DNA of 64,000 bases from assembly GCF_001942335.1 (NCBI RefSeq), contig NZ_MKKH01000022.1:115625-179624 (forward strand). Reading direction: 5' to 3'. The translations under genes and the position numbers were made by a program. The stretch is from Cellulosimicrobium sp. CUA-896 (GTDB lineage Bacteria; Actinomycetota; Actinomycetes; Actinomycetales; Cellulomonadaceae). Below the pieces are notes generated by a model. That model did not search any database and was not told where the DNA came from. It was given only the letters and a program-made list of their open reading frames with translations. Numbering within the stretch: the first letter of the stretch is position 1; the number at the start of each line of letters is the position of its first letter. Shown here in pieces: positions 18,933 to 37,768 of the stretch.

Positions 18933-21383
18933 ATGGCGCGCAAGCCCTCGACCCCCTCGCCCGACGCGGGCGCGGTGAACGAGACGATCGTCGACGTCGA
19001 CGTCGCGACGGAGATGGAGGGCTCGTTCCTCGAGTACGCCTACTCCGTCATCTACTCCCGCGCGCTGCCCGACGCGCGCGACGGCCTCAAGCCGGTCCAG
19101 CGGCGCATCCTGTACATGATGGCGGACATGGGCCTGCGGCCCGACCGCGCGCACGTGAAGTCCGCGCGCGTCGTGGGCGAGGTCATGGGCAAGCTGCACC
19201 CGCACGGCGACGGCGCGATCTACGACGCGCTCGTGCGCCTGGCGCAGGACTTCTCGCTGCGGCTGCCGCTCGTCGACGGGCACGGCAACTTCGGCTCGCT
19301 CGACGACGGGCCGGCCGCGTCCCGGTACACCGAGGCCCGGCTCGCGCCGCCCGCGCTCGCGATGACCACGGACCTCGACGAGGACGTCGTCGACTTCGTC
19401 CCGAACTACGACAACAAGCTCACGCAGCCGGGCGTCCTGCCCGCCGCGATCCCCAACCTGCTCGTCAACGGGGCGTCCGGCATCGCCGTGGGCATGGCGA
19501 CGAACATGCCGCCGCACAACCTCGTCGAGGTGGTCGCGGCCGCGCGGCACCTGGTGAAGAACCCGGACGCCGACCTCGAGGCGCTCCTGCGCTTCGTCCC
19601 GGGGCCGGACCTGCCGTCGGGCGGCAAGATCGTCGGGCTCGCCGGGGTGCGCGACGCCTACCGCACGGGGCGCGGGTCGTTCCGCACGCGCGCGACGGCG
19701 CGGGTCGAGAACCTCACGCCGCGCCGCAAGGGCATCGTCATCACCGAGCTGCCGTACGTCGTCGGGCCGGAGAAGGTGATCGAGAAGATCGCCGAGGGCG
19801 TCAAGGCCAAGAAGATCCAGGGCGTCACCGCCGCGACGGACCTCACCGACCGCGAGCACGGCCTGCGCATCGTCGTCGAGGTCAAGACGGGCTTCAACCC
19901 CGAGGCCGTGCTCGAGCAGCTGTACAAGTTCACGCCGCTCGAGGACTCGTTCGGCATCAACAACGTCGCCCTCGTCGGCGGCCAGCCGCGCACGCTCGGG
20001 CTGCGCGAGCTCCTCGCCGTGTGGGTCGACCACCGCATCGACGTCGTGCGCCGCCGGTCGGCGTACCGGCTGCGCAAGCGCTCCGAGCGCCTGCATCTCG
20101 TCGACGGCCTGCTCATCGCCATCGTCGACATCGACGAGGTCATCCAGGTCGTCCGGTCCTCCGACGACGCCCGCACGGCGCGCGAGCGGCTGCGCACCGT
20201 GTTCGACCTCTCCGAGCCGCAGGCCGAGTACATCCTCGAGCTCCAGCTGCGCCGCCTGACGAAGTTCTCGCGCATCGAGCTCGAGAAGGAGCAGGAGCAG
20301 CTGCGGCGCGAGATCGCCGAGCTCGAGGAGATCCTCGGCGACGACGCGCGGCTGCGCGCCGTCGTCTCCGCCGAGATGGCGGACGTGGCCAAGACCTACG
20401 GCACTCCGCGGCGCACGGTCCTGCTCGAGTCCGCGGGCGCGGCGCCCACGACGACGGCGGCCGTCCCGCTCGAGGTCGCCGACTCGCCGTGCTGGGTGCT
20501 GTACTCCGCGACCGGCCTGCTCGCCCGCACGAGCGACGAGACGGAGCCGGCCCGGACCGGGTCGCGGTCGGCGCACGACGTCCTGCGCGCCCGCGTCCCC
20601 GCCACCGCGCGCGGGACCGTCGGCCTCGTGACGAGCCGCGGCCGGGTCGTGCGCCTGTCGGTGCTCGACCTGCCCGCCCTGCCCCCGACCGACGGCGCGC
20701 CGAGCCTGTCCGGCGGTGTGCCGCTCAGCGAGGTCGTCGCGCTCGAGCCCGGCGAGGAGGCCGTGACGGTCGTCTCCCTGGAGGCCGACGCCCCCCCGCT
20801 CGCCCTCGGCACGGCGCAGGGCGTGGTCAAGCGCGTCGCCCCGGGCGACGCGCCGAGCAACCGCGACGACTGGGAGGTCATCGGCCTCCGGGACGGCGAC
20901 GTCGTCGTCGGCGCCGCGCCGGCGACGGACGCCGACGAGGTCGTGTTCGTCACCACCGACGCGAGCCTGCTGCACTTCGAGGCCGCGGCCGTGCGACCGC
21001 AGGGCCGGCCCGCGGGCGGCATGGCGGGCGTCCGCCTGGCCGAGGGGCAGCGTGTCGCGTTCTTCGGGGTCGTCCCGGCCGACGTGCGCGACCTCGCGAC
21101 CGTCGTCACGGTCTCCGGCTCGTCGGACGTGCTGGCCGGGACGCAGACCGGTTCGGCCAAGGTCACGCCGTACGAGCTCTACCCGGGCAAGGGTCGCGCG
21201 ACCGGCGGGGTGCGGGCCCACCGCTTCCTCAAGGGCGAGGACGCGCTGATCCTCGCGTGGGTGGGCCAGGGCCCGGCGCGCGCGACGGGCGCTGGCGGCC
21301 AGGCCGTCGACCTGCCCGAGCCCGACCAGCGCCGCGACGGCTCCGGCACGCCGCTCGCGTCGCCGGTGACCGCCGTCGGCTGA
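18933..21383 (+). CDS. parC: DNA topoisomerase IV subunit A (ParC), 816 aa
   Basis: The breakage-reunion subunit of a type IIA topoisomerase. The active-site pair is Arg131-Tyr132 in ASRYTEARL. The quinolone-facing helix reads [17 protein letters not shown] (residues 89-105). The tower/coiled coil and the exit gate ([21 protein letters not shown]) follow, then a beta-pinwheel from about residue 500. There is no canonical GyrA box; instead [11 protein letters not shown] appears near the end, which fits ParC better than GyrA. The residue equal to E. coli GyrA Ser83 is Gly94, while the Asp87 equivalent is kept (Asp98). The ATG at 18933 follows an AGGAG at about 14 bases. No parE lies in the window. 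Confidence 0.9.
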
Positions 21384-22887: not shown

Positions 22888-24516
22888 CTAGCGGCCCGAG
22901 CCGTCAGAGCCGGGGCTCGGCGATGCGGCGTCCTCCTGGTGGTAGTCCGCCAGCCGCTCGAGCTCTGCGTCGTGGCGAGGGAAGAGGCCGAGCACGATCA
23001 CCGCGCCGACGACGACCGCCGCGATCCCCGCCGTGTACGCCCAGTCGGCTCCCGAGAGGAAGGACTCCCGCGCGCCGGCGACGATCTCCGACGCGTACTG
23101 CGGGTACCGCTCGGCGACCGACTCCGCGCCGGCGAACGACTTCGTCAGCTGGCCCTGCACGCTGCTCGTGATCTCGTCGGCGCGGGACGAGCTCGCGATG
23201 GTCGCCCCGACCGCCGCGCCGTACCCGGCCGTGAGCAGGGCGCCGAAGACCGACTGCATGATCGCGCCACCCAGGTCGCGCTGCAGGTCGGCGGTGCCGG
23301 ACGCCATCCCGGCGCGCTGCACCGGCACGGATCCGGTCAGCGAGTGCGAGGCCGGCGTGCCGGCCAGTCCGACGCCGATCCCGATGAACGCGTAGGCGAG
23401 GGCGATCTGCCAGTAGGCGCTGTCCTCGGTCCACAGGACCAGCATCCAGACGAACGCGGCGAGCAGGAAGACGTAGCCGGCCAGCAGGGTGAACCTCGAC
23501 CCTCTGGACTCGACGAGCTTCGCCGACCGTGGAGCCACGAGGACCATGAGGACCACCGCGGGCAGGAAAGCGGCTCCTGCCTCGAAGGTCGTGTACCCGA
23601 GGACGTTCTGCAGGTACTGCTGACTGACGAACGCGGCCGCCATGAGGGACCCGAAGACGATGATCCCGGCGCAGGCCGCCACCCAGAAGATGCGGCGTCC
23701 CGCGACGTGCAGGTCGTAGAGCGGCACGTCGGCCCGGCGCTGTCGGACGACGAACGCGACGAGCGCGGCCGCCGCGACCACGGCGAACCCGGCGGCGAGC
23801 GCCCCCTGCTGCGGCACGGGCGCGAAGTTGATCGCCAGGATCAGCGCCCCGACGAGCACCACCGAGAGGACTCCGCCGAGGTTGTCCACGCGGTCCGAGG
23901 TCTCGTTCACGTGCGCGGGCACGAGCAGGACGGCCATGAGCAGAGCGACCGCGACCAGCGGGAGCGTGACGAGGAAGACCGAGCCCCACCACGCCCGCTC
24001 CAGGAGGAACCCCGCCACGAGCGGTCCCAGCGCCGCGATCCCGCCCCCGACGGCCGACCACAGCGCGATCGAGCGGGTCCGTCGCGGCCCGGACCACAGG
24101 GCGGTGATCAGCGCGAGCGTCGTCGGGTAGGCCATGCCGGCCGACACGCCCCCCAGCACCCGTGCCGCGAACAGGACGTCGTCGCTGGGCGCGTACGCCG
24201 CGAGGAGCGAGGCGGGGACCGACAGCAGCAGGCCGAGGACGAGCATGAGCTTGCGCCCGTGACGGTCGCCCACCGCGCCGAGGTAGAGCACGGACGCCGC
24301 GAGGCCGAGCGAGTACCCGACCGCGACGAGGTCGAGCGCGGTCTGCGACGAGTCGAAAGCCTGCCCGATCGACGGCAGCGCGACGTTCGCCACGGACAGG
24401 TTGAGGTTGGCGACCGCGGCGACCGCGATGAGCGCGGCGAGGACGAGCCCCGCACGCCGCGGCGCCGTCGTGCCCGTCGCCGGAGCCTCGCCCCGAGCCG
24501 TCGGCCGCTCGACCAT
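22888..24516 (-). CDS. MFS drug exporter, DHA2 (EmrB/QacA) type, 542 aa
   Basis: A proton-coupled exporter with about 14 predicted membrane helices. Helix 1 contains NLNLSVANVALPSIG, the usual DHA2 opening. The loop 2-3 motif A is LGAVGDRHGRKLML. Motif C-like ALGPLVAGFLLERAWWGSVFLV follows, as is usual for antiporters. An extracellular loop of about 70 residues comes before the last helix (DEITSSVQGQLTKSFAGAE). The start is ATG 24514-24516. It is divergent from the G6PDH-like gene, with a palindrome between them (24607-24623). The substrate is unknown. Confidence 0.88.
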   Translation of the reverse strand: MVERPTARGEAPATGTTAPRRAGLVLAALIAVAAVANLNLSVANVALPSIGQAFDSSQTALDLVAVGYSLGLAASVLYLGAVGDRHGRKLMLVLGLLLSVPASLLAAYAPSDDVLFAARVLGGVSAGMAYPTTLALITALWSGPRRTRSIALWSAVGGGIAALGPLVAGFLLERAWWGSVFLVTLPLVAVALLMAVLLVPAHVNETSDRVDNLGGVLSVVLVGALILAINFAPVPQQGALAAGFAVVAAAALVAFVVRQRRADVPLYDLHVAGRRIFWVAACAGIIVFGSLMAAAFVSQQYLQNVLGYTTFEAGAAFLPAVVLMVLVAPRSAKLVESRGSRFTLLAGYVFLLAAFVWMLVLWTEDSAYWQIALAYAFIGIGVGLAGTPASHSLTGSVPVQRAGMASGTADLQRDLGGAIMQSVFGALLTAGYGAAVGATIASSSRADEITSSVQGQLTKSFAGAESVAERYPQYASEIVAGARESFLSGADWAYTAGIAAVVVGAVIVLGLFPRHDAELERLADYHQEDAASPSPGSDGSGR

Positions 24517-24606
24517 GCCGCTCCCCCGTCGTCACGGTGGGTCCCCTCGTCGGACCCCCTCGTCGCGTCCCGTCCTCGATTCTCGACCGCTTGGCGCCGA
24601 GTGGAA

Positions 24607-24623
24607 TCATCCGGAACGGATGA
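24607..24623. promoter_or_regulatory. Dyad between divergent MFS and zwf-like genes
   Basis: TCATCC and GGATGA form a perfect inverted repeat around GGAAC. A second, partly overlapping inverted pair (CGGAAC at 24612-24617, GTTCCG at 24631-24636) lies beside it. The 199-base divergent region is otherwise plain. The position suits a shared operator. Confidence 0.45.
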
Positions 24624-24715
24624 CGCACCGGTTCCGAGCGTGGGACATCGTCGGAGGACACGAGGCGGGCGCCGGGACAGTGCGCGCCCCCGGCACGCGA
24701 CAGGAGATGGGACGG

Positions 24716-26119
24716 ATGGCGTCGACACCTTCCCCCGAGCAGAAGCACGCCGACGTGCTCGTGGTCTTCGGCATCACGGGTGACCTCGCCCGTGTCATGA
24801 CGTTCAGGTCGCTGTACCGGCTCGAGCGGCGCGGACTGCTCGCGTGCCCGGTCGTCGGTGTGGCGGTGGACGACTGGACCGTCGACCAGCTCGTCGAACG
24901 AGCGCGCAGCTCGATCGTGGGCAGCGGCGAGCCCCTCGACGAGCCGGTCTTCGCCCGGTTCGCGTCGCGCTTGTCCTATGTCAAGGGCGACTTCACCTCC
25001 CCCGACACGTACGCCGCCGTGGGCAAGGCGATCGTCGGCGCGACGACGCCGGTGTTCTACCTGGAGATCCCGCCCTTCCTCTTTGGGCGCGTGGTGCAGG
25101 GGCTGGCCGAGGCAGGACTGACCGACGGGGCGCGGATCGTCGTGGAGAAGCCCTTCGGGCACGATCGCGCGTCCGCGCGGGCCCTCGCGGACGAGCTGCA
25201 CACGTACATCGACGAGTCGCAGCTGTTCCGGATCGATCACTACCTCGGGAAGATGGGGCTCGGCGAGATCCTGCAGCTGCGCTTTGCCAACGCGATCCTC
25301 GAGCCGATCTGGAGCCGGCAGTACGTCGACTGCGTCCAGGTCACCATGGCCGAGGACTTCGGGGTGGAGGACCGCGGACACTTCTACGACCCGGTCGGCG
25401 CCCTGCGTGACGTCGTGGTCAACCACCTCATGCAGGTCGTCGCCGCGACCGCCGCCGAACCCCCGTCCCGGGGGGACCCGCTGACCCTCAAGGAGACGCA
25501 GGTCGCGCTGTTCCGCGCGATCGAGCCGGCCGACCCGGCGCACTTCGTGCGGGGGCAGTACGAGGGGTACCGCGACATCGCCGGCGTCGCGCCGGACTCG
25601 CAGACGGAGACCTTCGCCGCCCTCCGCCTCGACATCGAGAACTGGCGGTGGGCGGGGGTGCCGTTCTACGTCCGCACCGGCAAGCGGCTGCCCGTCACCC
25701 AGACCGAGGTGAGGCTGGTCTTCCGGCGCCCGCCACGCCTCGGATTCGGCGGTGCGGCCTCCGACCTCGAGCCGAACATGCTCGTCGTCCGGCTCGACCC
25801 GTCGACGGGCATCCGCATCCAGGTCGACGCGCACCGGGCGGACCAGGCGAGGGTCGCCCCGATCACCCTCAACATGGAGTTCACCGACGAGGGCGGCGAG
25901 GGCCCCACGCCGTACGAGGTGCTGCTCCGGGCCGCGATCGACGGAGACACCGTCCGGTTCACGCGCCAGGACGCCGTCGAGGAGACGTGGCGCGTCATGC
26001 AGCCCCTGCTCGACGCGCCGCCACCCGTGCACCCGTACGCCCCGGGGAGCTGGGGACCTGCCGAGGCCGATGTCGTCACCGCTGGTTCCGGCGGATGGCG
26101 CACCCCGTGGACCGCGTGA
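24716..26119 (+). CDS. zwf: Glucose-6-phosphate dehydrogenase family protein, divergent paralogue, 467 aa
   Basis: Oxidises glucose-6-phosphate with NAD(P)+ in the oxidative pentose phosphate pathway. The nucleotide loop is VFGITGDLARVMTFRSLY (residues 18-35) and the phosphate-binding block is RIVVEKPFGHD. The active site is R172-IDHYLGK, with catalytic His175 in the family position. The nucleotide loop lacks the Arg-Lys-Leu that usually follows GDL, so this is probably a second, specialised G6PDH. The second ATG (24716) is preferred because GGAG lies nine bases before it. It ends eight bases from the oppositely directed GMC gene. Confidence 0.85.
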   Translation: MASTPSPEQKHADVLVVFGITGDLARVMTFRSLYRLERRGLLACPVVGVAVDDWTVDQLVERARSSIVGSGEPLDEPVFARFASRLSYVKGDFTSPDTYAAVGKAIVGATTPVFYLEIPPFLFGRVVQGLAEAGLTDGARIVVEKPFGHDRASARALADELHTYIDESQLFRIDHYLGKMGLGEILQLRFANAILEPIWSRQYVDCVQVTMAEDFGVEDRGHFYDPVGALRDVVVNHLMQVVAATAAEPPSRGDPLTLKETQVALFRAIEPADPAHFVRGQYEGYRDIAGVAPDSQTETFAALRLDIENWRWAGVPFYVRTGKRLPVTQTEVRLVFRRPPRLGFGGAASDLEPNMLVVRLDPSTGIRIQVDAHRADQARVAPITLNMEFTDEGGEGPTPYEVLLRAAIDGDTVRFTRQDAVEETWRVMQPLLDAPPPVHPYAPGSWGPAEADVVTAGSGGWRTPWTA

Positions 26120-26127
26120 ACCCGGCG

Positions 26128-27681
26128 TCAGGAGAGCCGCGCGAGCAGGTGGTCCCCGACGCGTAGGGCGTTCGCCATCACGGTGAGCGCCGGGTTGACC
26201 GCGCCGATGCTGGGGAAGAAGCTCGCGTCGACGACGTACAGGTTGTCCAGCTCGTGGGCCTTGCAGTCGGTGTCGAGCACCGACGTAGCGGGGTCGGTCC
26301 CGAACCGCACGGTCCCCGCCTGGTGGGCGCAGCCCGCGACCGGCACGTCGTTCTTCATGTAGACGTCCCGCGGGACCAGGTGGTGGGGGTGCATGCCCAG
26401 CCGGCTCAGGTGCTTCTTCACCCGGTGGTAGAGCTGCTGCATGGGCACCTGGTTGTTCGGCTCATAGTGCAGGTGGACGTTCCCGTCCCGGTCGAGCGTC
26501 ACCCGGTTGTCGGGGTCGGGCAGGTCCTCGACGGACAGCCAGAAGTCGACGGCGTGCTCGGCGACGTCGCGCAGGGCGAAGGTCGGGGCGAACGCCGCCT
26601 CGAGCGGCTTCTCACCGCGGTACATCGGCGCCGAGGACTTGCCGACCATCTGGAGGTTGCCCATCGGGTAGCCGAAGTCGGCGTCCCCGAAGTAGAAGTC
26701 GTTGAGCCCGAGCGTCTTCTGGAACCGGGTGTCGTTCCGCTCGGTCGACACCGCCAGGAACGCCCGGCTGTTGTGGAACACGTAGTTGCGCCCGACCTGG
26801 TCCGACCCGTTGGCCAGACCGTTCGGGTGGTGGTCGTTCGCGCTCGCAAGGAGGATCTTCGCGGAGTTGACGGCGCCGGCCGACACGACGACGACGTCCG
26901 CGGTGAACCGCTCCTGCGCCCCGTCGACGTCGGCGACGACCGAGGTGACCGTGCGGCCGGACCCGTCGGTCTCGAGCCTGCGCACCCGGGCGTTGCGGAC
27001 CAGGGTGACGTTGTCGTGCTCGATCGCCGGGCGCACCGCGACGACGTCCGCGTCCGACTTGGCGTGCACGAGGCACGGGAACCCGTCGCACGTCGCGCAG
27101 CGGATGCAGGCACTGCGCTCCGGGCGGCTCTCGTCGAGCATGACCCCGCACGGCGCATGGAAAGGATGCAGCCCCACTGCCGTCATGTCGTCGAACAGCC
27201 TCTGGATACGCGATTCGTGCGAGACGGGCGGGTAGGGGTACGGCCCGGTCGCAGGAGGCTCGGTGGGGTCCTCGCCTCGGGCGCCGTGCACCTGGTACAG
27301 CTCCTCGGCCTGCGTGTAGTACGGCTCCATGACGTCGTAGCCGACGGCCCACGCCGGGGAGATGCCGTCGTGGTGCCTCAGCTCCTCGAAGTCGGCCTCG
27401 CGGAGCCGGTAGAGCGCCGCTCCGTAGAACTTCGTGGCTCCGCCGACGACGTAGTGCACCTGCGGCTGGAACGCCTTCCCGTCACCGTCGTACCACTGGT
27501 CGCTCGACACGTAGCGGTTGTCGACGAAGACGGCCGTGGCGTCCCAGTTCTGCGGCTCGCGCGGCAGCCAGTCGCCGCGCTCGAGGATGAGCACCCGTCT
27601 GCCGGACGGCGCGAGGCGGTACGCGAGCGTGCCGCCGCCCGCGCCAGAGCCGACGATGATCACGTCGTAGTGCTCGGGCAT
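26128..27681 (-). CDS. GMC-family FAD dehydrogenase with a four-Cys cluster motif, 517 aa
   Basis: Flavin-dependent alcohol/sugar oxidoreductase. The FAD-binding loop is VIIVGSGAGGGTLAYRLA (residues 8-25). VVVVSAGAVNSAKILLAS is the second GMC signature. The catalytic region is near CAHQAGTVRFG and VNPALTVMANALR. Residues 192-203 read CIRCATCDGFPC (Cys192, 195, 198, 203), an iron-sulfur-like spacing. Bacterial FAD-glucose dehydrogenases hold a 3Fe-4S cluster near the flavin that passes electrons to the respiratory chain; the same could hold here. There is no signal peptide, so it is cytoplasmic. GAAGGAG precedes the ATG. It begins 39 bases after the NDH-2-like gene and closes the operon. Confidence 0.85.
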   Translation of the reverse strand: MPEHYDVIIVGSGAGGGTLAYRLAPSGRRVLILERGDWLPREPQNWDATAVFVDNRYVSSDQWYDGDGKAFQPQVHYVVGGATKFYGAALYRLREADFEELRHHDGISPAWAVGYDVMEPYYTQAEELYQVHGARGEDPTEPPATGPYPYPPVSHESRIQRLFDDMTAVGLHPFHAPCGVMLDESRPERSACIRCATCDGFPCLVHAKSDADVVAVRPAIEHDNVTLVRNARVRRLETDGSGRTVTSVVADVDGAQERFTADVVVVSAGAVNSAKILLASANDHHPNGLANGSDQVGRNYVFHNSRAFLAVSTERNDTRFQKTLGLNDFYFGDADFGYPMGNLQMVGKSSAPMYRGEKPLEAAFAPTFALRDVAEHAVDFWLSVEDLPDPDNRVTLDRDGNVHLHYEPNNQVPMQQLYHRVKKHLSRLGMHPHHLVPRDVYMKNDVPVAGCAHQAGTVRFGTDPATSVLDTDCKAHELDNLYVVDASFFPSIGAVNPALTVMANALRVGDHLLARLS

Positions 27682-27720
27682 GGTGCCACTCCTTCGCCGG
27701 GTCGAGGCCTGGGGTCGATC

Positions 27721-29041
27721 TCAGGATGTCGGGCCGCTCGGCTCGACCGAGATGGTGGGGACGTCGTCGGCGTCGTCGCCCCAGGCGATGCGTCGGGGCG
27801 CTGACGACTCCTCGACAAGGGCAGCGTGGTCGCGGTCGAAGTAGTCCCACGCCCAGGACAGGAACGCGTCGGTCCTGCTGTGGGCGCCGCTGAGCAACAT
27901 GGCGTGGACGCCGAGCCAGGCGGCGAAGGCGACCGGGCCCTCGACCTGGTGGCGGTGCGGTCCCACCTCGCGACTGCCGCATTGCGGCCGATCATCGCCA
28001 TGATCCCCTTGTCCTTGTACCGGAACGCGGTCTTCTCGTGGCCGTGCAGCTCCCGCAGGATGTTGTCCGCGGCCCAGCGGCCCGACTGCTGGGCGACCGA
28101 CCCGAGCTGCGGCAGCGTGCCCGAACCCTTCGCCGGGATCTCGGCGGCGTCGCCGACCGCGTACACCTGGGGGTGGCCGGGCACGGTGAGGTCGGGTCGG
28201 ACCTCCACCTGCCGCCGCGGCCGGTGCCGACTCCGCTGGACCGCACGACCGGCGCGGCGGACTCGCCACCGCCCCAGACGACGGTGCGGGTGGGCAGCGT
28301 CGTCCCGTCGACGAGATCCACGCCGTGCTCCCGCACTGCTGCGACCCCGGTCCTGAGCCGCAGGACGGCGCCCTGGCGGGTGAGCCGCTCGTGGGCGTAC
28401 TCGTGCGACGCCTCGGAGAAGGCACCGAGGAGCGCCCCGCCGCGGTCGACGACGGTCACACGTCCGGCGTGCGGGATCGTACCGGTCCCGGCCAGGGCAG
28501 CCATGAGCTCCGCGAGCGCTCCGGCCACCTCGACACCGGTGGGCCGCCGGCGACCACGACGACGTCGAGCGCGCCCGTGTCCTCGCCGTCGCGGGACGCC
28601 GCGTCCAGCTGCGCCCGGACGTGCCGGCGGAGCTCTCCGCGTCGGCGACCGAGTAGAGCGGGAAGGCGTGCTCCGCGGCGCCCGGCACGCCGAAGAACTC
28701 CGCCCGGCCGCCCGCCGCGAGGACCAGGTGGCTCCCCGTGATCGTCTCACCGCCGGCGAGAGTCGCGCTCGGCACGTCGACGTCGACCGACACGACCTCC
28801 TCGGTGCGGACCTCCACGCTCGGGAAGTCGCGGAAGATGACGCGGTGGGGCCGCGCGATGTCCTCCGCGGGCAGCTGGGAGGTGGCGACCTGGTAGAGCA
28901 GGGGCTGGAACTGGTGGTAGTCGTTGCGGTCGACCAGGGTCACGCGCACGCCCTCGTCGCCGAGCCGGTGGGCGCAGGCGACCCCGGCCAGCCCTCCGCC
29001 GACGACGACCACGTGGCGGCCTTCCCCGGCCTCTCGGTCAC
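27721..29041 (-). CDS. NDH-2-like NAD(P)/FAD oxidoreductase (five frameshifts)
   Basis: A type II NADH dehydrogenase-like flavoprotein, about 441 aa after repair, which would pass electrons from NADH to quinone. HVVVVGGGLAGVACAHRLG is the FAD loop and VVVVAGGPTGVEVAGALAEL the NADH loop. VYAVGDAAEIP binds the flavin tail. A C-terminal part with AFAAWLGVHAMLLSG is the membrane-anchoring region of the family. The frame breaks near 29020, 28636, 28544, 28212 and 27970. The start is GTG 29039-29041, overlapping the GH15 stop as GTGA. This is the most disrupted gene in the window along with the GNAT fusion. Confidence 0.82.
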
Positions 29042-30900
29042 AGCGACAGCTCCTCGCGGAAGTCGGCGAGGACGATCCGGCCGGCGGCCTCGATGAGCGC
29101 CAGGTGCGAGAAGGCCTGGGGGAAGTTGCCGAGGTGCCGGGCGCGCTCGACCTCGAACTCCTCGGCGTAGAGGCCGAGCGGGGACGCGATCTTGAGCAGT
29201 CTCTCCATGACGTTGCGCGCCCGGTCCATCTCGCCGATCGCGGCGAACGCCGAGACCAGCCAGAACGAGCAGATGAGGAACGTCCCCTCCTTGCCCGACA
29301 TGCCGTCGTCGGTCTCGTCGGTGCGGTAGCGCAGGACGAAGCCGTTCTCGGTGAGCTCGCTGTCGATCGCCTCGACCGTGTTGCGGATCCGCTCGTCCGT
29401 GGCCGGAAGGAAGCCGAACAGCGGGGCCAGCAGCGTCGACGCGTCGAGCGCATCCGTGTCGTAGTGCTGGCGCAGGACGCCGCGGTCGCTGACCCCGTGG
29501 TCGAGGATGTCCGCACGGATCTCGTCCGCGGTCGCCCTCCACTTCGCGGACAGCTCCTCCTCGTCCCGGATGGCGGCGAGCTTGGCGGCGCGGTCGAGGG
29601 CCACCCAGCCCATCAGCTTGGACGAGACGTAGTGCCGCGGTTCGCCACGAGCCTCCCAGATCCCCTGGTCGGGCTGCCGCCAGACGGCGGTCGCGCAGGA
29701 GGCCTGGGACTCGACGAGCGGCCACAGCCGCATCGGCAGGTGCTTGCTCCGCGTCGTGTGCAGCAGCAGCGAGTCCAGCACCGCCCCGAACACGTCGTTC
29801 TGGCGCTGGTCGAACGCGCCGTTGCCCACGCGCACGGGTCGGGCGCCCTCGTACCCGCCGAGGTCGTCGCGGGTCGTCTCGGTGAGGTCCCGTCGCCCGT
29901 CGATGCCGTACATGATCTGCAGCGCGCCGTCGGCGTTCGGCTCGAGGTCGGCGACGAACTGCATGAACTCGTCCGCCTCCCAGTCGAGGTTGAGGTAGTG
30001 CAGCGCCTGGAGGGTGAACGTCGTGTCGCGGATCCACGTGTAGCGGTAGTCCCAGTTGCGCTCGCCCCCGGGCGTCTCGGGCAGCGACGTCGTCAGGGCC
30101 GCGACGGTAGCCCCGGTCGGCATGTAAGTCAGGCCCTTGATGGTCAGGGCGGACCGTTCGAGCGAGTGCCGGAGCGGGTGGTCGGGGATCCGGGCCCTCG
30201 ACAACCACTCCCGCCAGAACTGGACGGTGCTCGCGATCCGCGCGGTGGCGTCCGCGGCGTCAGCCGGCGACACGAGCCCGTCGGCCCACGACAGCGCGCA
30301 GAACGCGGTCTCCCCCTTGCGGAGCACGTGCCGGGCGCGCGCCGCGCCGCCCTCGATGCCGACGAGCATGTCGGTGCTGAGGCGCAGGCGCTGGCCTGCG
30401 CCGGACGCGTCGGCGACGTGGTCGTCGTCGCCCACGACGGTCCACCGCGCGGGCTCGCGGCCGTAGTCGAACGCCGGCTCGCAGACGAGCTCCACCTCGA
30501 CGGCCCCCTCGATGCACTCGACCGTGCGCACGAGCAGGTGGTCGGCGTCGGCGTCGGCCGGCGGCCTGGTGTGGGGCGTCACCGTGTCGTGGCCCCTGCG
30601 CGGTCCCATCGTCAGCGCGTCGTGGACGACGAGCCAGCCGGCAGGCGTGTGCCACGTGGTGGTCAGGACGTTCGTCCCGGGGACGTAGGAGCGCGCGTTC
30701 GGCACGTTGATGCCGTACGGCCCGAAGCGGAACGAGCCCGCGCCGCGGTCGAGCAGGTTGCCGAAGGAGCTGGGGGCGTCGAAGGCCGGGACACAGAGCC
30801 AGTCCAGGGAGCCGTCAGGGGCGACGAGCGCGCCGGTGTGGCAGTCGGACAGGAACGCGTAGTCGGCGATCGGAGGGAAGGATGACGTCGTCGCGCTCAT
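29038..30900 (-). CDS. Glycoside hydrolase family 15 protein (glucoamylase/trehalase type), 620 aa
   Basis: Inverting alpha-glucosidase. An N-terminal super-sandwich domain (from FPPIADYAFLSDCHTGALV) is followed by the (alpha/alpha)6 barrel. The catalytic acid region is NWDYRYTWIRD (residues 282-292) and the second catalytic Glu is in KEGTFLICSFWL (about 537-548). Actinobacterial members of this architecture include trehalases as well as glucoamylase-like enzymes, so trehalose or a maltodextrin are both possible substrates. No signal peptide is seen, so it acts inside the cell. The ATG overlaps the cydB stop as ATGA, an unusual partner for cytochrome bd genes. Confidence 0.88.
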   Translation of the reverse strand: MSATTSSFPPIADYAFLSDCHTGALVAPDGSLDWLCVPAFDAPSSFGNLLDRGAGSFRFGPYGINVPNARSYVPGTNVLTTTWHTPAGWLVVHDALTMGPRRGHDTVTPHTRPPADADADHLLVRTVECIEGAVEVELVCEPAFDYGREPARWTVVGDDDHVADASGAGQRLRLSTDMLVGIEGGAARARHVLRKGETAFCALSWADGLVSPADAADATARIASTVQFWREWLSRARIPDHPLRHSLERSALTIKGLTYMPTGATVAALTTSLPETPGGERNWDYRYTWIRDTTFTLQALHYLNLDWEADEFMQFVADLEPNADGALQIMYGIDGRRDLTETTRDDLGGYEGARPVRVGNGAFDQRQNDVFGAVLDSLLLHTTRSKHLPMRLWPLVESQASCATAVWRQPDQGIWEARGEPRHYVSSKLMGWVALDRAAKLAAIRDEEELSAKWRATADEIRADILDHGVSDRGVLRQHYDTDALDASTLLAPLFGFLPATDERIRNTVEAIDSELTENGFVLRYRTDETDDGMSGKEGTFLICSFWLVSAFAAIGEMDRARNVMERLLKIASPLGLYAEEFEVERARHLGNFPQAFSHLALIEAAGRIVLADFREELSL

Positions 30901-32048
30901 GTGGAGTTCTCCTCGCTCGCTTCGTCCAGAAAGGATTCTCGGCCTCCACCATCGACGGTCGTCCCGCGGGCGCCCTCCCCCGCCGCGGATGATTCGACGG
31001 TCGTCGTCGAGCCGCCGAGAGGTCCGTGAGGCGCTCCCTCGTCCTCGACGCCCTCGTCGGGCAAGAGCCCTCGCTGGTCCAGGACGTACAGCACGACGAA
31101 GCCCGGTACCACCAGGAGCACGGCGCAGGCCGTGGCGACGGCCAGGGCCGTGAGCGTGCCGCTCGGGGCGGCGGCATCCGCGAAGGTCAGCGTCTCGGGG
31201 AGGATGTACGGCCACTGGGCGACGCCCCAGGCGACGACCATGCTCGCGACGGCGAGCGCGGCGAGCACGCGCGTCGCTCGGACGAGCCGCCGGCCGAGGA
31301 GGACGAGCGCCGCCGCCCCGCAGACGACGGAGAGGAGCGTCAGCGGGAGCGCCCGGGAGGTCAGGCCCTCGCCGACGTGCGGCGCCCGGGTGCGCAGGAC
31401 CAGCGCCCCGGCGACGGCGAACGCCGCCGCCACGACCGCAGCGAGCACGGCACGCCGGCGGAAGTGCTCGACGAGACCGCGGTCGTCGGCGCGCCGTGCC
31501 TCCCGGACGAGGTAGACCGCGGCGAGGTACGCCGCGAGCACGACCGCGAGCGCACCCGTGAGCAGGGACGTGGGGTTGAGCCAGCTCTGCACCGGGTCGC
31601 CGGCGCGTCCCCCGGCCGGGACCTCCCCGGAGGCGATACCGCCGGCCATCGCGCCCATGCAGAACGGCACGAGCACGGACGACAGGGCGAACCCGCCACC
31701 GAAGACGCGCCGGTAGCGGGTCGACGCGACGGCCTTGCGGAAGGCGAAGCTCGCGCCGCGCAGCACGATCCCGAGCGCGGCGATCGTCAGCGGCACGAAC
31801 ATGGTGAGCACGATCGACTGGTAGGCCTCGGGGAAGCCCGACCAGGTGATGACGAGGATGAAGACGAGCCACACGTGGTTGGCCTCCCACACCGGCCCGA
31901 TGGACCGCTCGACGAGCGCCCGTGGACGCTCGCCCCGCCGCGCGCCGCCGGCGGTGAGGTCCCAGAAGCCGGCGCCGAAGTCCGCGCCCCCGAGCACGGC
32001 GTACGCGACGACGGCCAGCAGCAGGATGATCGCGACGGCGGTGATCAT
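30897..32048 (-). CDS. cydB: Cytochrome bd ubiquinol/menaquinol oxidase subunit II, 383 aa
   Basis: The membrane subunit that pairs with CydA. It starts with a helix containing YAVLGGADFGAGFWDL, the family's most conserved block. IGPVWEANHVWLVFILVITWSGFP and FRKAVASTRYRRVFGGGFALSS follow. Some eight or nine helices are visible, then a hydrophilic C-terminal tail of about 60 residues rich in Gly, Ser and Glu. The ATG at 32046-32048 overlaps the cydA stop and the TGA overlaps the GH15 ATG. The usual partner genes cydC/cydD are not next to it. Confidence 0.93.
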   Translation of the reverse strand: MITAVAIILLLAVVAYAVLGGADFGAGFWDLTAGGARRGERPRALVERSIGPVWEANHVWLVFILVITWSGFPEAYQSIVLTMFVPLTIAALGIVLRGASFAFRKAVASTRYRRVFGGGFALSSVLVPFCMGAMAGGIASGEVPAGGRAGDPVQSWLNPTSLLTGALAVVLAAYLAAVYLVREARRADDRGLVEHFRRRAVLAAVVAAAFAVAGALVLRTRAPHVGEGLTSRALPLTLLSVVCGAAALVLLGRRLVRATRVLAALAVASMVVAWGVAQWPYILPETLTFADAAAPSGTLTALAVATACAVLLVVPGFVVLYVLDQRGLLPDEGVEDEGAPHGPLGGSTTTVESSAAGEGARGTTVDGGGRESFLDEASEENST

Positions 32049-33552
32049 GGCCGCGTCTCCGGCTCGGACCGCTGCTGCCGCGGGCGCGCGGGCTGAGGGC
32101 CCGGCGTGTGGTCGGGCTGGTGGTCGGGCCCGTCGTCAGCGCGCAGGACGGCGCTGCCCTGGGCCCGTACGGCGTGTCGAGCTCGATGAACTCTCCGGCG
32201 CGACGGAACCGCCGGCTCATGGCGCGCAGCACAAGGACCGTCGTCGTGCCCAGTGCCGCGTAGAGGACGACGATGACGACGAACGTCAGCCACACCCCCG
32301 TGTTCTCCGTGGCGGCATCCTCGACCTTCATGAGCCCGTAGACGATCCACGGCTGCCGGCCCACCTCGGTGACGATCCAGCCCGCCTCCATGGCGACGAC
32401 GGACAGCACCCCCGACGACGCCGCGAGCCACAGGAACACCCTGCTCCGCGGCATGCGTCGTCGGAAGAGCCAGGTCGCGCCGTACCAGGCGGACAGCAGG
32501 AACAGCAGCGTCCCGATCCCGACCATGACGTCCCAGGCGAGGTGCACAATGTTTACCTCGCGGACCGTCGGGCGCTCGTCGGGCGGGACGCTGTCGAGCC
32601 CCTCGACGACGGTCGACCGGCCCGTGCTCGGGTCGGACAGCCACGACGCGAGGCCCGGGATCGGGAGTCCGCCCGACACCGTGCCGTCCTCGTTCAGACG
32701 ACCCAGCAGCGTCTCCGGAACGTCGGAGCTCGTCGTCGGGACGAGCTCGATGGCGGCGAACTTGACCGGCTGGTTCTCGTAGACCCACCGCGCCAGGGCG
32801 TCACCGACGCCCATCTGCACGGGGGTCGCGACGGCCCCGACGGTGAACGCGATGAGGAAGCCGAGCCGGTGGTAGCGGTCGTCACGGCCGCGCAGCATCG
32901 CGGTCGCATAGACGGACGCCACCAGGAACCCGCCGACGAGGTAGGCGGCGATGAGCATGTGGGCCGCCTGGAGCGGCATCGAGTCGTTGAAGATGACGCC
33001 GATCGGGTCGACGTCGACCACGTTGCCGGCGTCGTCGAGGGTGAAGCCGGCCGGCGCGTTCATCCACGCGTTCGCCGCGACGACGGAGACCGAGCCGGCG
33101 ATGCCGGCGAGCACGATGGGTACCCCGGTCCAGAAGTGCGTCCACGGCCTCAGGCGGCGCCAGCCGAAGATGTACACCGCGACGAAGATCGCCTCGGTGA
33201 AGAAGAACAGGCCTTCGAAGGCGAAGGGCACCCCGAACGCCTCTCCCCACAGGCCCATGAAGCGGGGCCACAGCAGACCGAACTCGAAGCTCAGCACGGT
33301 GCCTGTCACCGCACCGACCGCGAAGGTCACCGCCATGTACTTCGACCAGCGCTGCGCGAGCACGAGCGCTGCCCTGTCGTCGTGCCGTAGGGCGCGGTAG
33401 TTGGCGACCAGCGTCATGAACGCCCACGAGATCCCGAGCGGGACGAGGACGATGTGGAACATCAGCGTGAACGCCATCTGCCCGCGTGCCCAGGGCACGG
33501 GGTCGACGGCAGCGGCGAGGTCGGCGGTCAGGAGCGCGGCGTCCGAGATCAT
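32045..33552 (-). CDS. cydA: Cytochrome bd oxidase subunit I (frameshift near C-terminus)
   Basis: The haem-bearing subunit of the high-affinity quinol oxidase, about 502 aa. His33 in FTLMFHIVLVP matches the haem b595/d-side ligand of the family's first helix. The quinol loop is seen with ENQPVKFAAIE, GRQPWIVYG is the classic signature, and AAHMLIAAYLVGG carries the haem b558 His. One base is missing near 32161 in a C run (Gly-Pro codons). After it the product ends in an acidic/polar tail and a TGA that overlaps cydB. The start is ATG 33550-33552 with GGGAGG upstream, 25 bases after the LuxR-type regulator. Confidence 0.92.
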
Positions 33553-33577
33553 GGAGGCCTCCCGTCGGGAGTCGTCG

Positions 33578-36136
33578 TCAGCTCAGGTGGAGCTCGCGTG
33601 CCCGCCGGACGGCCTCGTGGCGGCGGGAGACGACGAGCTTGCCGAGGATTCGCCGCACGTGGGTCCGGACGGTGTTCGCCGAGATGAACATCTCCGCGGC
33701 GATCTCCTCGGTGGTGAGCAGCGCCGACAGGTGCTGCAGGACTTCGAGCTCACGCTCCGAGAGCCGCTCGACGACAGGAGCGTCCCCGGCCCGACGCGGC
33801 TCGTGCTGCCGCGTCGGGCGACGGTCAGGGCGCAACCAGTCGGCCCGCGAACGCAGCTCCGGGTCGGTGCGGATCATCGACCGGACCTCGGGGACGGCGC
33901 GCGCGAAGGGACGACGCAGGCCTTCGCCCTCCGCGAGCGTCAACGCCCGCGCGACGGCCTCCCGGCTCGCCCGGTGCTCGCCGCGGATCCCGTGGCGGTG
34001 CGCGTCCTCCAGCAACGCCTGGACCGTCGTCGCCGTGGCGGTGCCCGCCGGCGGGGCGGCGCGCGGTCGGCGCCCCGCGTGTCGGTGGCCGTCGAGCTGC
34101 GCGGCGGACGCGAGCAGTCCGACTGCCGCGACGTCGTCCTCGAACCGTGCGCGCAACCACTCGGCGGGGGCCGCCGACCGCCGCAGCAGCCGTCGCGCTC
34201 CGGCCGCGTCACCGTGGTCCAGCTTGAGCCGCGCCCGAAGGAGGAGGGCGACCTGTCCCAGCAGGGGCGCGTCGCGCGGCCCCGCCGAGCGCCCCGCGAC
34301 GGCGAGCGCGGACCCCGCACCAGACAGGTCCTGCCGGTCGAGCGCGACCCACGCCCGTGCCAGCCCGAGGGCCGGCGGCGGGGGGACCGCTTCCACGACG
34401 AGTCCCGCGGCGGAGTCGACGGCCTCCTGGGCCCGGGTCAGACGACCCCGGCACGCCTCGGCGAGCGCGAGGACGGACAGGCAGCCCAGCACGACCTCGT
34501 CGCGCCCGCTCGCGACGGCCACCGACACGGCGTCCACGAGCGCCGCCCACGCGACGTCCAGCTCCCGGCTCCGAGGTACGCCATGCCCTCGGAGCGGCGC
34601 ACGAGCGCCGTCGCGGCCGCGTGCGCCGCGTCCGTTGCCTCGAGAGCGGCGAGCGCCGCGCGGGCCCGTGCGGCCACGTCCAGCGTGCCCGCGACGTCTC
34701 CGGACAGCTCGCGCGCCCGCACCTCGAGGACCGCCGCCCACGCGAGAGAGCGACCGTCGGGCGCCGCGGCGCGGTCCGCGGCCCACGATCCGGCATCCCC
34801 CGTCGACGCGAGATGCCGCTCGGCCACCTCGGGGACCCCTCGCCCGAGGGCGAGCGCAGCCCGGACGAGCCGGACGTCCGCGTGCCCGTGCGCCGGTGCA
34901 CCCCGGAGCATGTCGGCGAGTCGGGGGCCACCGGGACCCGGCTCCAGGAGGTCCACGAGCCGCCGAGACGGACCGTCCACCCGGCGGCCCGCTCCCAGTC
35001 GGCGGCCGCGACCGCGTGCTCGACCGCCGGCATCAGCTGCCCCGCGGTGCCGAACCGGTCCGACGCGAGGCGAGACCGTTCGAGCTCGGAGCCCTCCGGG
35101 CGCACCGCCCGCTGGGCGAGGAGAGCGTCGCGGAGGAGCGGATGGAGGCGGTACGACCCGAGCCTGCCGGGCACCGCCCGCACGAACGCGTTCCGCCGTT
35201 CCAGCTCCCACAACCGCAGTCCGGCGTCGCTCCGCCCGCTCAGGGCCGTCGCGAGCCGGGCGAGACCTCGTCGAGGATGCTCACCCGCAGGAGGAGGTCG
35301 CGCTCCGCCTCGGGGAGCGGGGCGAGCACCTCCACGGCGAGGTAGTCGGATGCCGAGCGTTCGAGCGTCGTCCCCGTGGCGCCCGGTCGCAGGGCGAGCG
35401 CGGCCATCCGTGCACCGGCCACCCAGCCCTCGGTGCGATCGACCAGCGTCGCCACGGAGCCCGCGGGGAGCCGCACCCCGTACGCCTCCAGCAGTGCGTG
35501 GAGCTCGGCCGGCGTGAGCGCCAGCTCCGTGGGCGAGAGCTCGGCCAACGTGCCGTCGAGGCGGTAGCGGTGCAGCGGCAGCGGCGGGTCCTCCCGGGTC
35601 GCCAGGACGAGGCGGAGCAGTCCGTGGGTGCGATCGACCAGAGCCGCCAGCCCGTCGAAGATCTCCTGCCGCCCGATCCGCTCCACCGCGTCGAGGACGA
35701 GGACCACGGGTGAGCCCGTGCGCGGCAGACGGCACGCGAGCAGGTCCACGTCGTCGCCCCCGAGGACGAGCTCGCTGCGCGGGCGAGCGGACAGGGCACC
35801 GGCGTCGGACAGTGCCGAGCGGACGTGCCGCCAGAAGACGTGCGGATCGTCGTCGCGCGACGTCACCGTCAGCCATCCCACGGGGTCCCGTGCGCCGTCC
35901 GCCCAGCATGACACCAGGACCGTCTTGCCCGAACCGGCCGGCGCGCACACGAGCGTCACGACGGCCTCGTCGACGGCGCGCGCGAGGGCGCTCACCAGTC
36001 GACGCCGCTCCACCACGGGACCGGAGAAGGTCCGACCGGGCCTCGCCGGACCGCGGTGCCGGTGCTCGCGCTCGGGCGCGCTCCTTCGCGGTCCGTCCGT
36101 CGTCGTCGGCCGCTGCGTGCTCAGCCCGACGTCCAT
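33578..36136 (-). CDS. LuxR-family regulator of LAL/MalT type, about 853 aa (three frameshifts)
   Basis: A large ATP-binding transcription regulator. The P-loop is CAPAGSGKT at residues 64-72, Walker B is VVLVLDAVER, and the helical ATPase region is YLAVEVLAPLPEAERDLLL. A long TPR-like middle section follows. The C-terminal LuxR HTH is LSERELEVLQHLSALLTTEE to ISANTVRTHVRRILGKL. Frame breaks fall near 35260, 34962 and 34572. The ATG at 36134-36136 has AGGTGG six bases upstream. The inducer is unknown; MalT of E. coli senses maltotriose, which is suggestive beside a GH15 gene but does not prove it. It probably controls the operon that it heads. Confidence 0.82.
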
Positions 36137-36354
36137 GGCACCACCTGCCGTCGCGAGCGTGCGGGAGCCTCGCGCGCACACCGCGAGACACGACGTGGCG
36201 GGGCTCGAGACTCGACACTCGCGCGGCGGCGGTGCCGCGGTCATCGTCCAGATCGCGTGAAAGCGCGTCCACGTGCCGCGCGAGGCGCCGGCGACGGTGC
36301 GCCGTGCCCGGTCGGGTCGGGAGAGCCGGCGGCGCCGTGCGCGCCGGTCTCGTC

Positions 36355-37707
36355 TCAGGCGTTCGCGAGCTCGCGGTCGTCGTCCGCCACGAGCTTCTGG
36401 TCCTCGTAGCGGCGCACGACGCGGCTGACCGTCGACTGCGACGCGGAGACCTGGTCGGCGATCTCCCGCTGGTTCAGGCCCTGACGGGCGAGCTCGACGA
36501 TGCGGCGGTCGCGCGAGGCGGTGGGGTCCTCGTCGAGGGCGCCCTCGCCGGTCTCGGCCGCCGCAGCCTGGACGCCGGTGCTCGGACGGGCCAGGTCGAA
36601 GACCTCGACGCGCCGGGTGTGACCCGTCACGGCCGGGGGCTCCACGCCCTGCGGCGCGTCGGCGGTCTCCGGGAGGGGCTGCTCCCAGGGAAGCGGTCGG
36701 GCACCCGCGAACACGTCCTTGACGCGCGCCTCGAGGTCGGGGAGCGCCTCGAACGCGGTCTCGGGCACGTAGGGCTCCTCGTCCGGCTCCCGGACGGCGG
36801 CGGCGCCCCCTGCTGCGACGGTCGGGCCGTCCTGCACCGGCGCGGCGACCGGTACGGTCTCGACCCCGGCGACCGGCCCCTCGCGCGTCGGCTCGCGCAC
36901 GAGAGCCTCCGGGCCGCGCACCTCGGCGGACGCCGCGGCCCGGGCGGGCACGACGGCGGCGGTCGCGACCGGCCCGCGGGCGGTGCCGCGCTTGACGGAG
37001 CTCGCCCCGATGAGGTCGAGCCGGGTGCCGTGGCGTTCCGCGGCCTCCAGGCGGTCGACCCAGACCTGCATGCGGCGCTCGAAGTCCTCGACCGTCAGGA
37101 GCTTGAGGGCACCGTCACGGGCGGCACGCTGACGCTGGTGGGCGGCGCGGACCTTGCGCAGGTCCGCCGACGAGCCCGAGCTGTCGACGCGTGCGTCGCG
37201 CCACTGCTCCAGGGCGGTGACGTACGCGTGGACCCGCGTCTCCCGACGCCGCTCGTCGAGGGTGTGGCCCGTCACCATGTGCCGCTCCCCCACGAGCGCC
37301 AGGTGCCACATGAGCGCGGCGACCAGCGGCGGCACGAACCGGAACACCACCATGTACGGGGTGCTCTCGGTCGGGACGGCGACCTCGTGGAGCGCCGCGA
37401 ACACGCCCGAGGTGCCCGAGAGCACCCAGGTGAGCGTGAGGAGGACGCCGTACGGCCGCCCCTCGAGCGCCGCGTTGCGCGCCATGAGGGCCACCGCGAC
37501 GAGGCTCACCTCGAGGAAGCCCGCCAGGCCGTACGCCTCGAGCGGCGACATGTGCGCGACCTCGAGGCCGAACAGCACCATGCCGCTGTAGGCCAGTGCG
37601 GTGGCGATCGTCGCGGCGACGATCACCGCGACCATCGGGAGGTGCCTGCCGCGGTAGCGCACCTGCCGCGGCGCACCGCCCGCGCCGGTCTGGTCCTGCT
37701 GAGTCAC
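36355..37707 (-). CDS. DUF2637 membrane protein with C-terminal HTH, 450 aa
   Basis: The N-terminal part (residues 20-130) has four hydrophobic helices, including LAYSGMVLFGLEVAHMSPLEAYG and VVFRFVPPLVAALMWHLALVGE, typical of DUF2637. A charged helix-rich middle follows, then a disordered stretch. The C-terminal HTH is RIVELARQGLNQREIADQ with SASQSTVSRVVRRYE, like the resolvase/sigma-type helix-turn-helix. DUF2637 proteins are often carried by actinobacterial plasmids and integrative elements (Spd-like), but no transfer genes lie here. The start is GTG 37705-37707 behind GGAGGACGAC; an upstream TTG is less likely. A promoter with a dyad over its -10 suggests self-regulation. Confidence 0.78.
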   Translation of the reverse strand: MTQQDQTGAGGAPRQVRYRGRHLPMVAVIVAATIATALAYSGMVLFGLEVAHMSPLEAYGLAGFLEVSLVAVALMARNAALEGRPYGVLLTLTWVLSGTSGVFAALHEVAVPTESTPYMVVFRFVPPLVAALMWHLALVGERHMVTGHTLDERRRETRVHAYVTALEQWRDARVDSSGSSADLRKVRAAHQRQRAARDGALKLLTVEDFERRMQVWVDRLEAAERHGTRLDLIGASSVKRGTARGPVATAAVVPARAAASAEVRGPEALVREPTREGPVAGVETVPVAAPVQDGPTVAAGGAAAVREPDEEPYVPETAFEALPDLEARVKDVFAGARPLPWEQPLPETADAPQGVEPPAVTGHTRRVEVFDLARPSTGVQAAAAETGEGALDEDPTASRDRRIVELARQGLNQREIADQVSASQSTVSRVVRRYEDQKLVADDDRELANA

Positions 37708-37717
37708 GTCGTCCTCC

Positions 37718-37768
37718 GATATGTGGTCCGAGCACCCATATCCCAACAGTCAGGACACTCCTCGTCAA
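37718..37768 (-). promoter_or_regulatory. Promoter and dyad operator of the DUF2637-HTH gene
   Basis: On the minus strand TTGACG (37763-37768) is followed after 17 bases by TGGGAT (37740-37745). An inverted repeat GATATG/CATATC (37718-37723 and 37737-37742, 13 bases apart) overlaps the -10 and runs to the ribosome site. That is where a repressor would sit. Confidence 0.55.

Follow-up and report, generated by a model that had tools for sequence, protein, structure and literature searches.

Gene content of the locus

We analysed a stretch of 64,000 nucleotides from Cellulosimicrobium sp. CUA-896 (assembly GCF_001942335.1, contig NZ_MKKH01000022.1, positions 115,625 to 179,624; hereafter the window), and in it a set of six minus-strand genes which probably links the oxidation of a sugar to a terminal oxidase. 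From its upstream end, the set comprises a LAL/MalT-like LuxR-family ATPase regulator (33578..36244; GerE above and AAA_16 below the Pfam cut-off), cydA for cytochrome bd subunit I of a second lineage (32163..33552; PF01654, 415 bits), cydB for subunit II (30897..32048; PF02322, 225 bits), a trehalase-like GH15 glycosidase (29038..30900; PF00723 and TREH_N), an NDH-2-like NADH:quinone reductase (27721..29041; Pyr_redox_2 on its first piece) and a GMC flavoenzyme resembling FAD-dependent glucose and fructose dehydrogenases (26128..27681; PF00732/PF05199). The genes are tightly packed. The LAL stop and the cydA start are separated by 25 bases and the NDH-2 stop and the GMC start by 39, while cydB and GH15 overlap by 4 bases and GH15 and NDH-2 share the overlap GTGA. 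The content, order, strand, gaps and stop-start overlaps described in the original prediction were thus all borne out, as was its convergent neighbour, a zwf-type glucose-6-phosphate dehydrogenase (G6PD) gene on the plus strand (24716..26119; TIGR00871, 457 bits, cut-off 400.6) which ends 8 bases from the GMC stop. A sigma-70 promoter scan of the locus returned 0 promoters, and a terminator scan found a single terminator-like site (1.7 expected), located within cydA.

Some of these frames are broken in the assembly, a draft of 78 contigs that is 83% complete. Aligned with the homologues of loci L008 and L010, the LAL gene falls into four pieces in three frames (36019-35255, 35492-34968, 34953-34843 and 34588-33584); the same holds for NDH-2, with four pieces in three frames against its homologues. 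The cydA frame continues into the cydB region without meeting a stop. The frames of GMC, GH15, cydB, G6PD and the neighbouring MFS gene are open. Because the otsA and gluconokinase genes elsewhere in the genome also match in two pieces each (C55:35297-36669 and C5:70687-71150, respectively), indel errors in the assembly are the likely cause. Decay of the locus was rejected as the source on the same grounds, and also because all six genes are intact, in the window order, in Kribbella and Jiangella.

Two further genes adjoin the set. Beyond G6PD lies a DHA2-type MFS transporter gene on the minus strand (22888..24516; EmrB-like, below cut-off), and homologues of it, 70-79% identical, were found near the cassette in four other loci (L010, L012, L015 and L099). 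Upstream of the operon, a protein encoded at 36355-37746 has hydrophobic helices and a C-terminal helix-turn-helix (HTH); we take it to be like the DUF2637/SpdB proteins of actinobacterial mobile elements, although Pfam gave HTH-type matches only. For most genes outside the cassette, the names given here rest on inspection of the first residues by eye.

Recurrence of the gene set

When relatives were collected with GH15 as the anchor, the best 80 loci of at least 590 fell into two groups. In 17 of them GH15 was at least 70% identical to that of the window, and in the flank fetched, these close loci carried GMC, cydA (of either lineage) and NDH-2 in 11 cases each and G6PD in 10. The remaining 63 loci contained neither GMC (0) nor cydA (0). 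Stretches of at least 12 kb were fetched for 51 of the 63 distant and 14 of the 17 close loci. The association of GMC and cydA with close GH15 gave a Fisher p of about 1e-9, a value that ignores relatedness among loci, and on this comparison chance adjacency of the cassette genes was rejected.

Conservation of gene order, on which the original prediction was to be checked, was found as well. The arrangement LAL-cydA-cydB-GH15-NDH2-GMC is exactly that of the window in Kribbella and Jiangella (junctions of -4 to 82 bases), and the set recurs elsewhere in rearranged form, for example in Cellulomonas alba and in locus L100, where the order is G6PD-GH15-GMC-NDH2-cydA-cydB with junctions of -11 to 56 bases. 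In two other Cellulomonas (Root485 and BIN39), a cydA only about 30% identical to the window type is packed with SDR-GMC-GH15-NDH2. GMC, GH15, NDH-2 and oxidase genes are linked by stop-start overlaps in several of these orders.

Anchored on GMC, the search was positive in 11 of 396 genomes of a phylum sample, the host included. Eleven GMC loci besides that of the window were available, two of them on contigs shorter than 10 kb; cydAB was present in five, GH15 in six, and gluconokinase, aldose 1-epimerase or gluconolactonase in seven. Four Streptomyces-like loci (L104-L107), which resemble a cluster of S. canus, contain GMC, an SDR gene, cydAB, GH15 (37-38% identity) and gluconokinase in variable order. 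L105 has, beside GMC and cydAB, a fusion of gluconokinase (170 bits, cut-off 113.75) with an aldose 1-epimerase. The SDR beside GMC and cydAB passed the cut-off of NF005559, a broad subfamily model named "glucose 1-dehydrogenase", and fell short of that of NF006493. Aldose epimerases were also found near GMC in L018, L066 and L101, and gluconolactonase and glucose-1-dehydrogenase-like neighbours of GMC occur outside the phylum too. Of 13 cassette genomes, 11 had a gluconokinase above the family cut-off; in the host, gluconokinase-family and otsA-family genes are present outside the operon.

The association also occurs on plasmids, and there beyond the phylum. Among 46 plasmid records with GMC, 22 were examined (two of them, L162 and L163, are unannotated and were read by tblastn). 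In 16 of these GMC was at least 50% identical, and terminal-oxidase genes lay within 12 kb of it in seven: cydAB in Streptomyces canus and Embleya, haem-copper oxidases in Paraburkholderia, Lichenicola, Caballeronia and Roseomonas, and both types in Trichormus. Roseomonas has four haem-copper oxidase genes, the first of which shares 4 bases with GMC, and in Lichenicola such genes stand just upstream of GMC. The same 16 loci contained a GH15, glucoamylase or alpha-glucosidase-type gene in ten cases and gluconolactonase in eight (one of them a fragment). The GMC loci on the Priestia plasmid and on that of Paraburkholderia PREW-6R (unannotated) showed no oxidase, glycosidase or gluconolactonase, and that of Aureimonas only zwf, overlapped by GMC. 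At the six plasmid loci with GMC below 50% identity there was no oxidase and no gluconolactonase, and alpha-amylase or alpha-glucosidase was present in two.

In five loci of Pseudomonadota (L155, L157, L160, L165 and L166), a membrane gene annotated as DoxX-family lies near GMC together with cupin, gluconolactonase and VOC genes. Its product might serve as a membrane entry for electrons; the DoxX protein of L165 had no Pfam match at 1e-8.

The predicted enzymes

The best PDB sequence matches of the window GMC were FAD glucose dehydrogenase (6a2u, 162 bits) and fructose dehydrogenase, and the top nine Foldseek matches of its predicted model (mean pLDDT 72, below 50 in a cysteine-rich loop) were all fructose and FAD-glucose dehydrogenases. 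The loop reads C192-x2-C195-x2-C198-x4-C203. None of the 18 GMCs aligned from the phylum has lost more than one of its four cysteines, and each retains the catalytic His/Asn pair. The pair is missing from the Trichormus GMC, and that copy may therefore do something else. Identity with MftG was rejected on the TIGR03970 score (74.8 bits, cut-off 387).

The nearest NCBIfam model of the GH15 protein is TreH1, the archaeal trehalase (376 bits, below the equivalog cut-off of 820). Three glutamates that are presumably catalytic (E416, E580 and E581) are invariant in 16 of 16 aligned sequences, and E416 aligns with a Glu of the GH15 isomaltose glucohydrolase. A predicted model (mean pLDDT 76) was closest in fold to a GH15-type dextran dextrinase, followed by other (alpha/alpha)6 enzymes. 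By eye, no signal peptide was evident in either GH15 or GMC. An inverting GH15 acting on trehalose would yield one beta- and one alpha-glucose (PMC10969515); since both anomers would be released, an aldose epimerase beside GH15 makes sense.

For the two genes that are broken in the window, the intact homologues of locus L010 were compared instead. NDH-2 matched the solved NDH-2 chains 9mqy (170 bits, the best) and 5na1 (138 bits), and the LAL protein was nearest to MalT PRK04841 (180 bits, below the cut-off of 537). As for G6PD, the window protein and the 4lgv chain carry GVAV/GVAS where the 9emm chain carries GFAR. The arginine of GFAR helps to bind the 2'-phosphate of NADP, and a preference of the window enzyme for NAD is possible.

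Two lineages of cytochrome bd

Among solved chains, the window cydA product was closest to the bd menaquinol oxidase 9r2g (383 bits), followed by 5doq (263 bits), 7ose (bd-II, 138 bits) and 7nkz (131 bits), the last three of which we take to be the enzymes of Geobacillus, E. coli and M. tuberculosis, respectively. Aligned with 7ose and 5doq, CydA retains the aligned residues that we assume to be haem ligands and to form the quinol site, and CydB was assigned by family only. Judged by these matches, the cydAB product is a predicted cytochrome bd oxidase.

Contig C11 of the host carries another cydA, and 1.3 kb from it lies a CydD-family gene that scores over its cut-off. The claimed absence of cydC and cydD thus holds for the operon and fails for the genome as regards CydD (cydC was not searched for). 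Loss of cydD was rejected, as the gene accompanies the other cydA. CydD was over its cut-off somewhere in the genome in 12 of 13 cassette genomes; genome G365 has the module-type cydA only and no CydD over cut-off. The flanks of cydA from 12 genomes that gave no GMC match did not show GMC, as expected.

In genome G374 (L140:8658-18183), a module-type cydAB (cydA 74% identical) stands beside a malic enzyme, an NDH-2-like gene, a glutamate-synthase-like gene and a thiamine pyrophosphate enzyme nearest to models of quinone-dependent pyruvate dehydrogenase, below their cut-offs. Possibly, this is another bd-linked set leading from a substrate to oxygen.

Phylogeny and proposed oxidase exchange

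A topoisomerase-A-like protein of the window (18933-21383, named by eye) was compared in nine genomes and was 76-77% identical to those of four Cellulomonas, 67% to that of Kribbella and 64% to that of Jiangella; by this marker the host is a relative of Cellulomonas. GMC and GH15, in turn, are 84% and 83% identical to those of Kribbella, with which the window GMC pairs in the GMC tree (support 100/99), whereas GH15 of Cellulomonas Root485 and BIN39 is only 74% identical. In Cellulomonas alba the two proteins are roughly as similar to those of the window as in Kribbella (82% for GMC and 87% for GH15), and the genes are arranged differently. Of 297 genomes from the host's order, seven gave a GMC match (E up to 1e-120), and the identity reached 60% only in the host and in G458. 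Taken together, the topoisomerase identities, the closeness of GMC and GH15 to Kribbella, the GMC tree and the rarity within the order point to horizontal transfer of the cassette.

In the GMC tree (from which L009, with GMC in three pieces, and L102 and L103, with no full GMC gene called, were left out), twelve actinobacterial GMCs form a clade, ten of them with cydAB in the fetched stretch. In this clade the module-type cydA (bd2) is intermingled with the type that shares about 30% identity with it (bd1). Root485 and BIN39 carry bd1 and are nested in a group with bd2, and the sister of Hamadaea (bd1) is Catellatospora (bd2), with support 100/99. By our own parsimony count, the tree requires three changes of oxidase type, or two if only well-supported branches are considered. 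The oxidase beside the cassette thus differs between lineages, being of either bd lineage or a haem-copper enzyme, and from this exchange of oxidases is inferred. Genome G458, of the host's own family, carries bd1 cydAB-SDR-GMC followed by LAL (L180:9063-15634), with GMC shortened to 421 aa and GH15 and NDH-2 missing; this cassette seems to be decaying.

Proposed function and its alternatives

We favour, with moderate confidence, an explanation of the locus as a recurring and shuffled cassette which would convert an intracellular alpha-glucoside through glucose to gluconolactone and pass the electrons via the quinone pool to the adjoining cytochrome bd. According to this model, GH15 would hydrolyse the alpha-glucoside (probably trehalose, or else an alpha-glucan) to glucose, and the FAD-dependent GMC would oxidise glucose to gluconolactone, its electrons reaching the oxidase encoded alongside. 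NADH generated from that sugar by G6PD, or in other lineages by the glucose-1-dehydrogenase-like SDR, would enter the same oxidase through NDH-2, and gluconate would be phosphorylated by gluconokinase, encoded within some cassettes and, in this genome, outside the operon. Up to the gluconate step no ATP would be spent, and the pathway could thus restart respiration from stored sugar in de-energised cells. Substrates, electron route, acceptor, co-regulation and co-transcription are all inferred here. A broader proposal is that the cassette moves horizontally across phyla, as a soluble quinone-linked glucose dehydrogenase converting glucose, freed within the cell from trehalose or glycogen, to gluconate with a private and exchangeable oxidase of either bd lineage or of the haem-copper type, for ATP-free starter respiration in dried, dormant or de-energised cells. 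This we put forward tentatively, and rather doubt than expect it.

The idea of a sugar-to-oxygen module under one inducer-sensing regulator, with which the analysis began, has survived in part. The sugar assignment gained support from the gluconokinase, aldose 1-epimerase, gluconolactonase and SDR neighbours and from the nearest structures of GMC, while the single regulator was not supported, no LAL being present upstream in L009, L012, L014, L015, L021 and L100. This irregular presence of the regulator is one of several observations that weigh against the model. GMC was not seen in the fetched stretch of six of the 17 close GH15 loci (L011, L016, L017, L019, L020 and L074), of which L019 and L020 are on contigs shorter than 4.5 kb. 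Gluconokinase was not over its cut-off in Kribbella or G365. The module-type cydA (E up to 1e-90) is present in 37 of 396 genomes, and only six of these 37 are among the 11 with GMC. Pairwise identities of GMC and GH15 across 13 cassettes correlate weakly (r 0.25; GMC with G6PD 0.33, GH15 with G6PD 0.60), from which it follows that the parts do not always travel together. As for the path of the electrons, no membrane or haem subunit that could accept them from GMC was recognised. Moreover, the GMCs of Roseomonas, Mesorhizobium INR15 and Aureimonas keep only one of the four loop cysteines, and that of Roseomonas nonetheless belongs to an oxidase operon. Because the cysteines are lost in this clade, an Fe-S exit route cannot be general, and the case for it is weakened.

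Among the alternatives, the one that survives best is that GMC oxidises another sugar, a cyclitol or a glycoside, with GH15 freeing that compound or cutting another glucan, so that the system would be respiratory without being specific for glucose. More distant GMC relatives (42-47% identity; Ensifer, Arthrobacter and Rhizobium) do adjoin Gfo/Idh/MocA or 1,5-anhydro-D-fructose reductases and sugar ABC transporters, with no oxidases; GH15 scores under the trehalase cut-off, and fructose dehydrogenase equals glucose dehydrogenase in closeness of fold to GMC. Beside the close GMC group, however, it is gluconokinase, gluconolactonase, aldose 1-epimerase and zwf that recur, and we regard a substrate other than glucose as unlikely. 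Still less probable is a general stress or desiccation island whose genes do not form one pathway. Its oxidase would protect the cell from oxygen or low energy, and its sugar genes would do no more than recycle trehalose. Such an island would be in keeping with the neighbouring genes for CLC channels, DUF389, Na+/H+ antiporters, PRC-barrel proteins and Ku, and with the frequent occurrence of module-type cydAB without sugar genes. Against it stand the stop-start overlaps that tie the cassette genes together in several orders, and the fact that unrelated oxidases adjoin the same GMC family. That GMC is an H2O2-forming sugar oxidase of the pyranose oxidase type, with cytochrome bd lowering oxygen or handling peroxide, we consider very improbable: pyranose 2-oxidases come next in the fold list and the loop cysteines are dispensable in one clade, but the nine best structures are all dehydrogenases and, by eye only, no recurrent catalase or peroxidase was recognised in the neighbourhoods surveyed for them.

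Bacteria are known to oxidise glucose directly in the periplasm, with oxidases that are shared. If the sugar-oxidising cassette functions as proposed, it would represent a self-contained cytoplasmic unit leading from sugar to oxygen, equipped with a glycosidase and with an oxygen reductase of its own that would have been replaced repeatedly. It would also give the second bd lineage, found in some Actinomycetota with no adjoining cydD, one role, and offer a testable proposal as to how the proton gradient might be regained from stored trehalose without ATP outlay. Searches of the open-licence PMC literature listed no paper that describes this gene set; one may exist outside it.

Comparison with known systems

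The nearest kin of the GMC protein, by both sequence and fold, are the catalytic subunits of the membrane-bound FAD glucose dehydrogenase of Burkholderia cepacia (BcGDH, a gamma-alpha-beta complex) and of Gluconobacter fructose dehydrogenase. These enzymes have a cysteine-rich loop at the same place, and in them, too, sugar oxidation feeds respiration. In BcGDH, a 3Fe-4S cluster is held by Cys212, Cys218 and Cys222, and the FAD may be attached covalently to His105 (PMC6719666). The loop cysteines of the window GMC are spaced differently, and Phe85 takes the place of His105. Unlike both systems, the region 22888-36244 of the window contains neither a hitchhiker nor a tri-haem cytochrome c gene and has no room for one; the cassette GMC, with no signal peptide evident by eye, is likely cytoplasmic, and its operon includes a terminal oxidase and a glycosidase. 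MftG, the mycofactocin dehydrogenase of mycobacteria, is likewise an actinobacterial GMC flavoprotein that feeds the respiratory chain (PMC11778925). The cassette GMC differs from it in scoring far below the MftG cut-off and in being linked to sugar genes.

As for the oxidase, the window cydA resembles the second actinobacterial bd lineage, whose nearest solved member is 9r2g. It is unlike that lineage elsewhere in standing in a sugar operon, neither alone nor beside cydD like the other lineage. Finally, in periplasmic direct glucose oxidation a pyrroloquinoline quinone (PQQ) glucose dehydrogenase produces gluconate from glucose and reduces the quinone pool, and gluconokinase follows. The route proposed for the cassette would share these steps, whereas its dehydrogenase belongs to another enzyme family, is predicted to be cytoplasmic, would be fed by an intracellular GH15 and has its own terminal oxidase.

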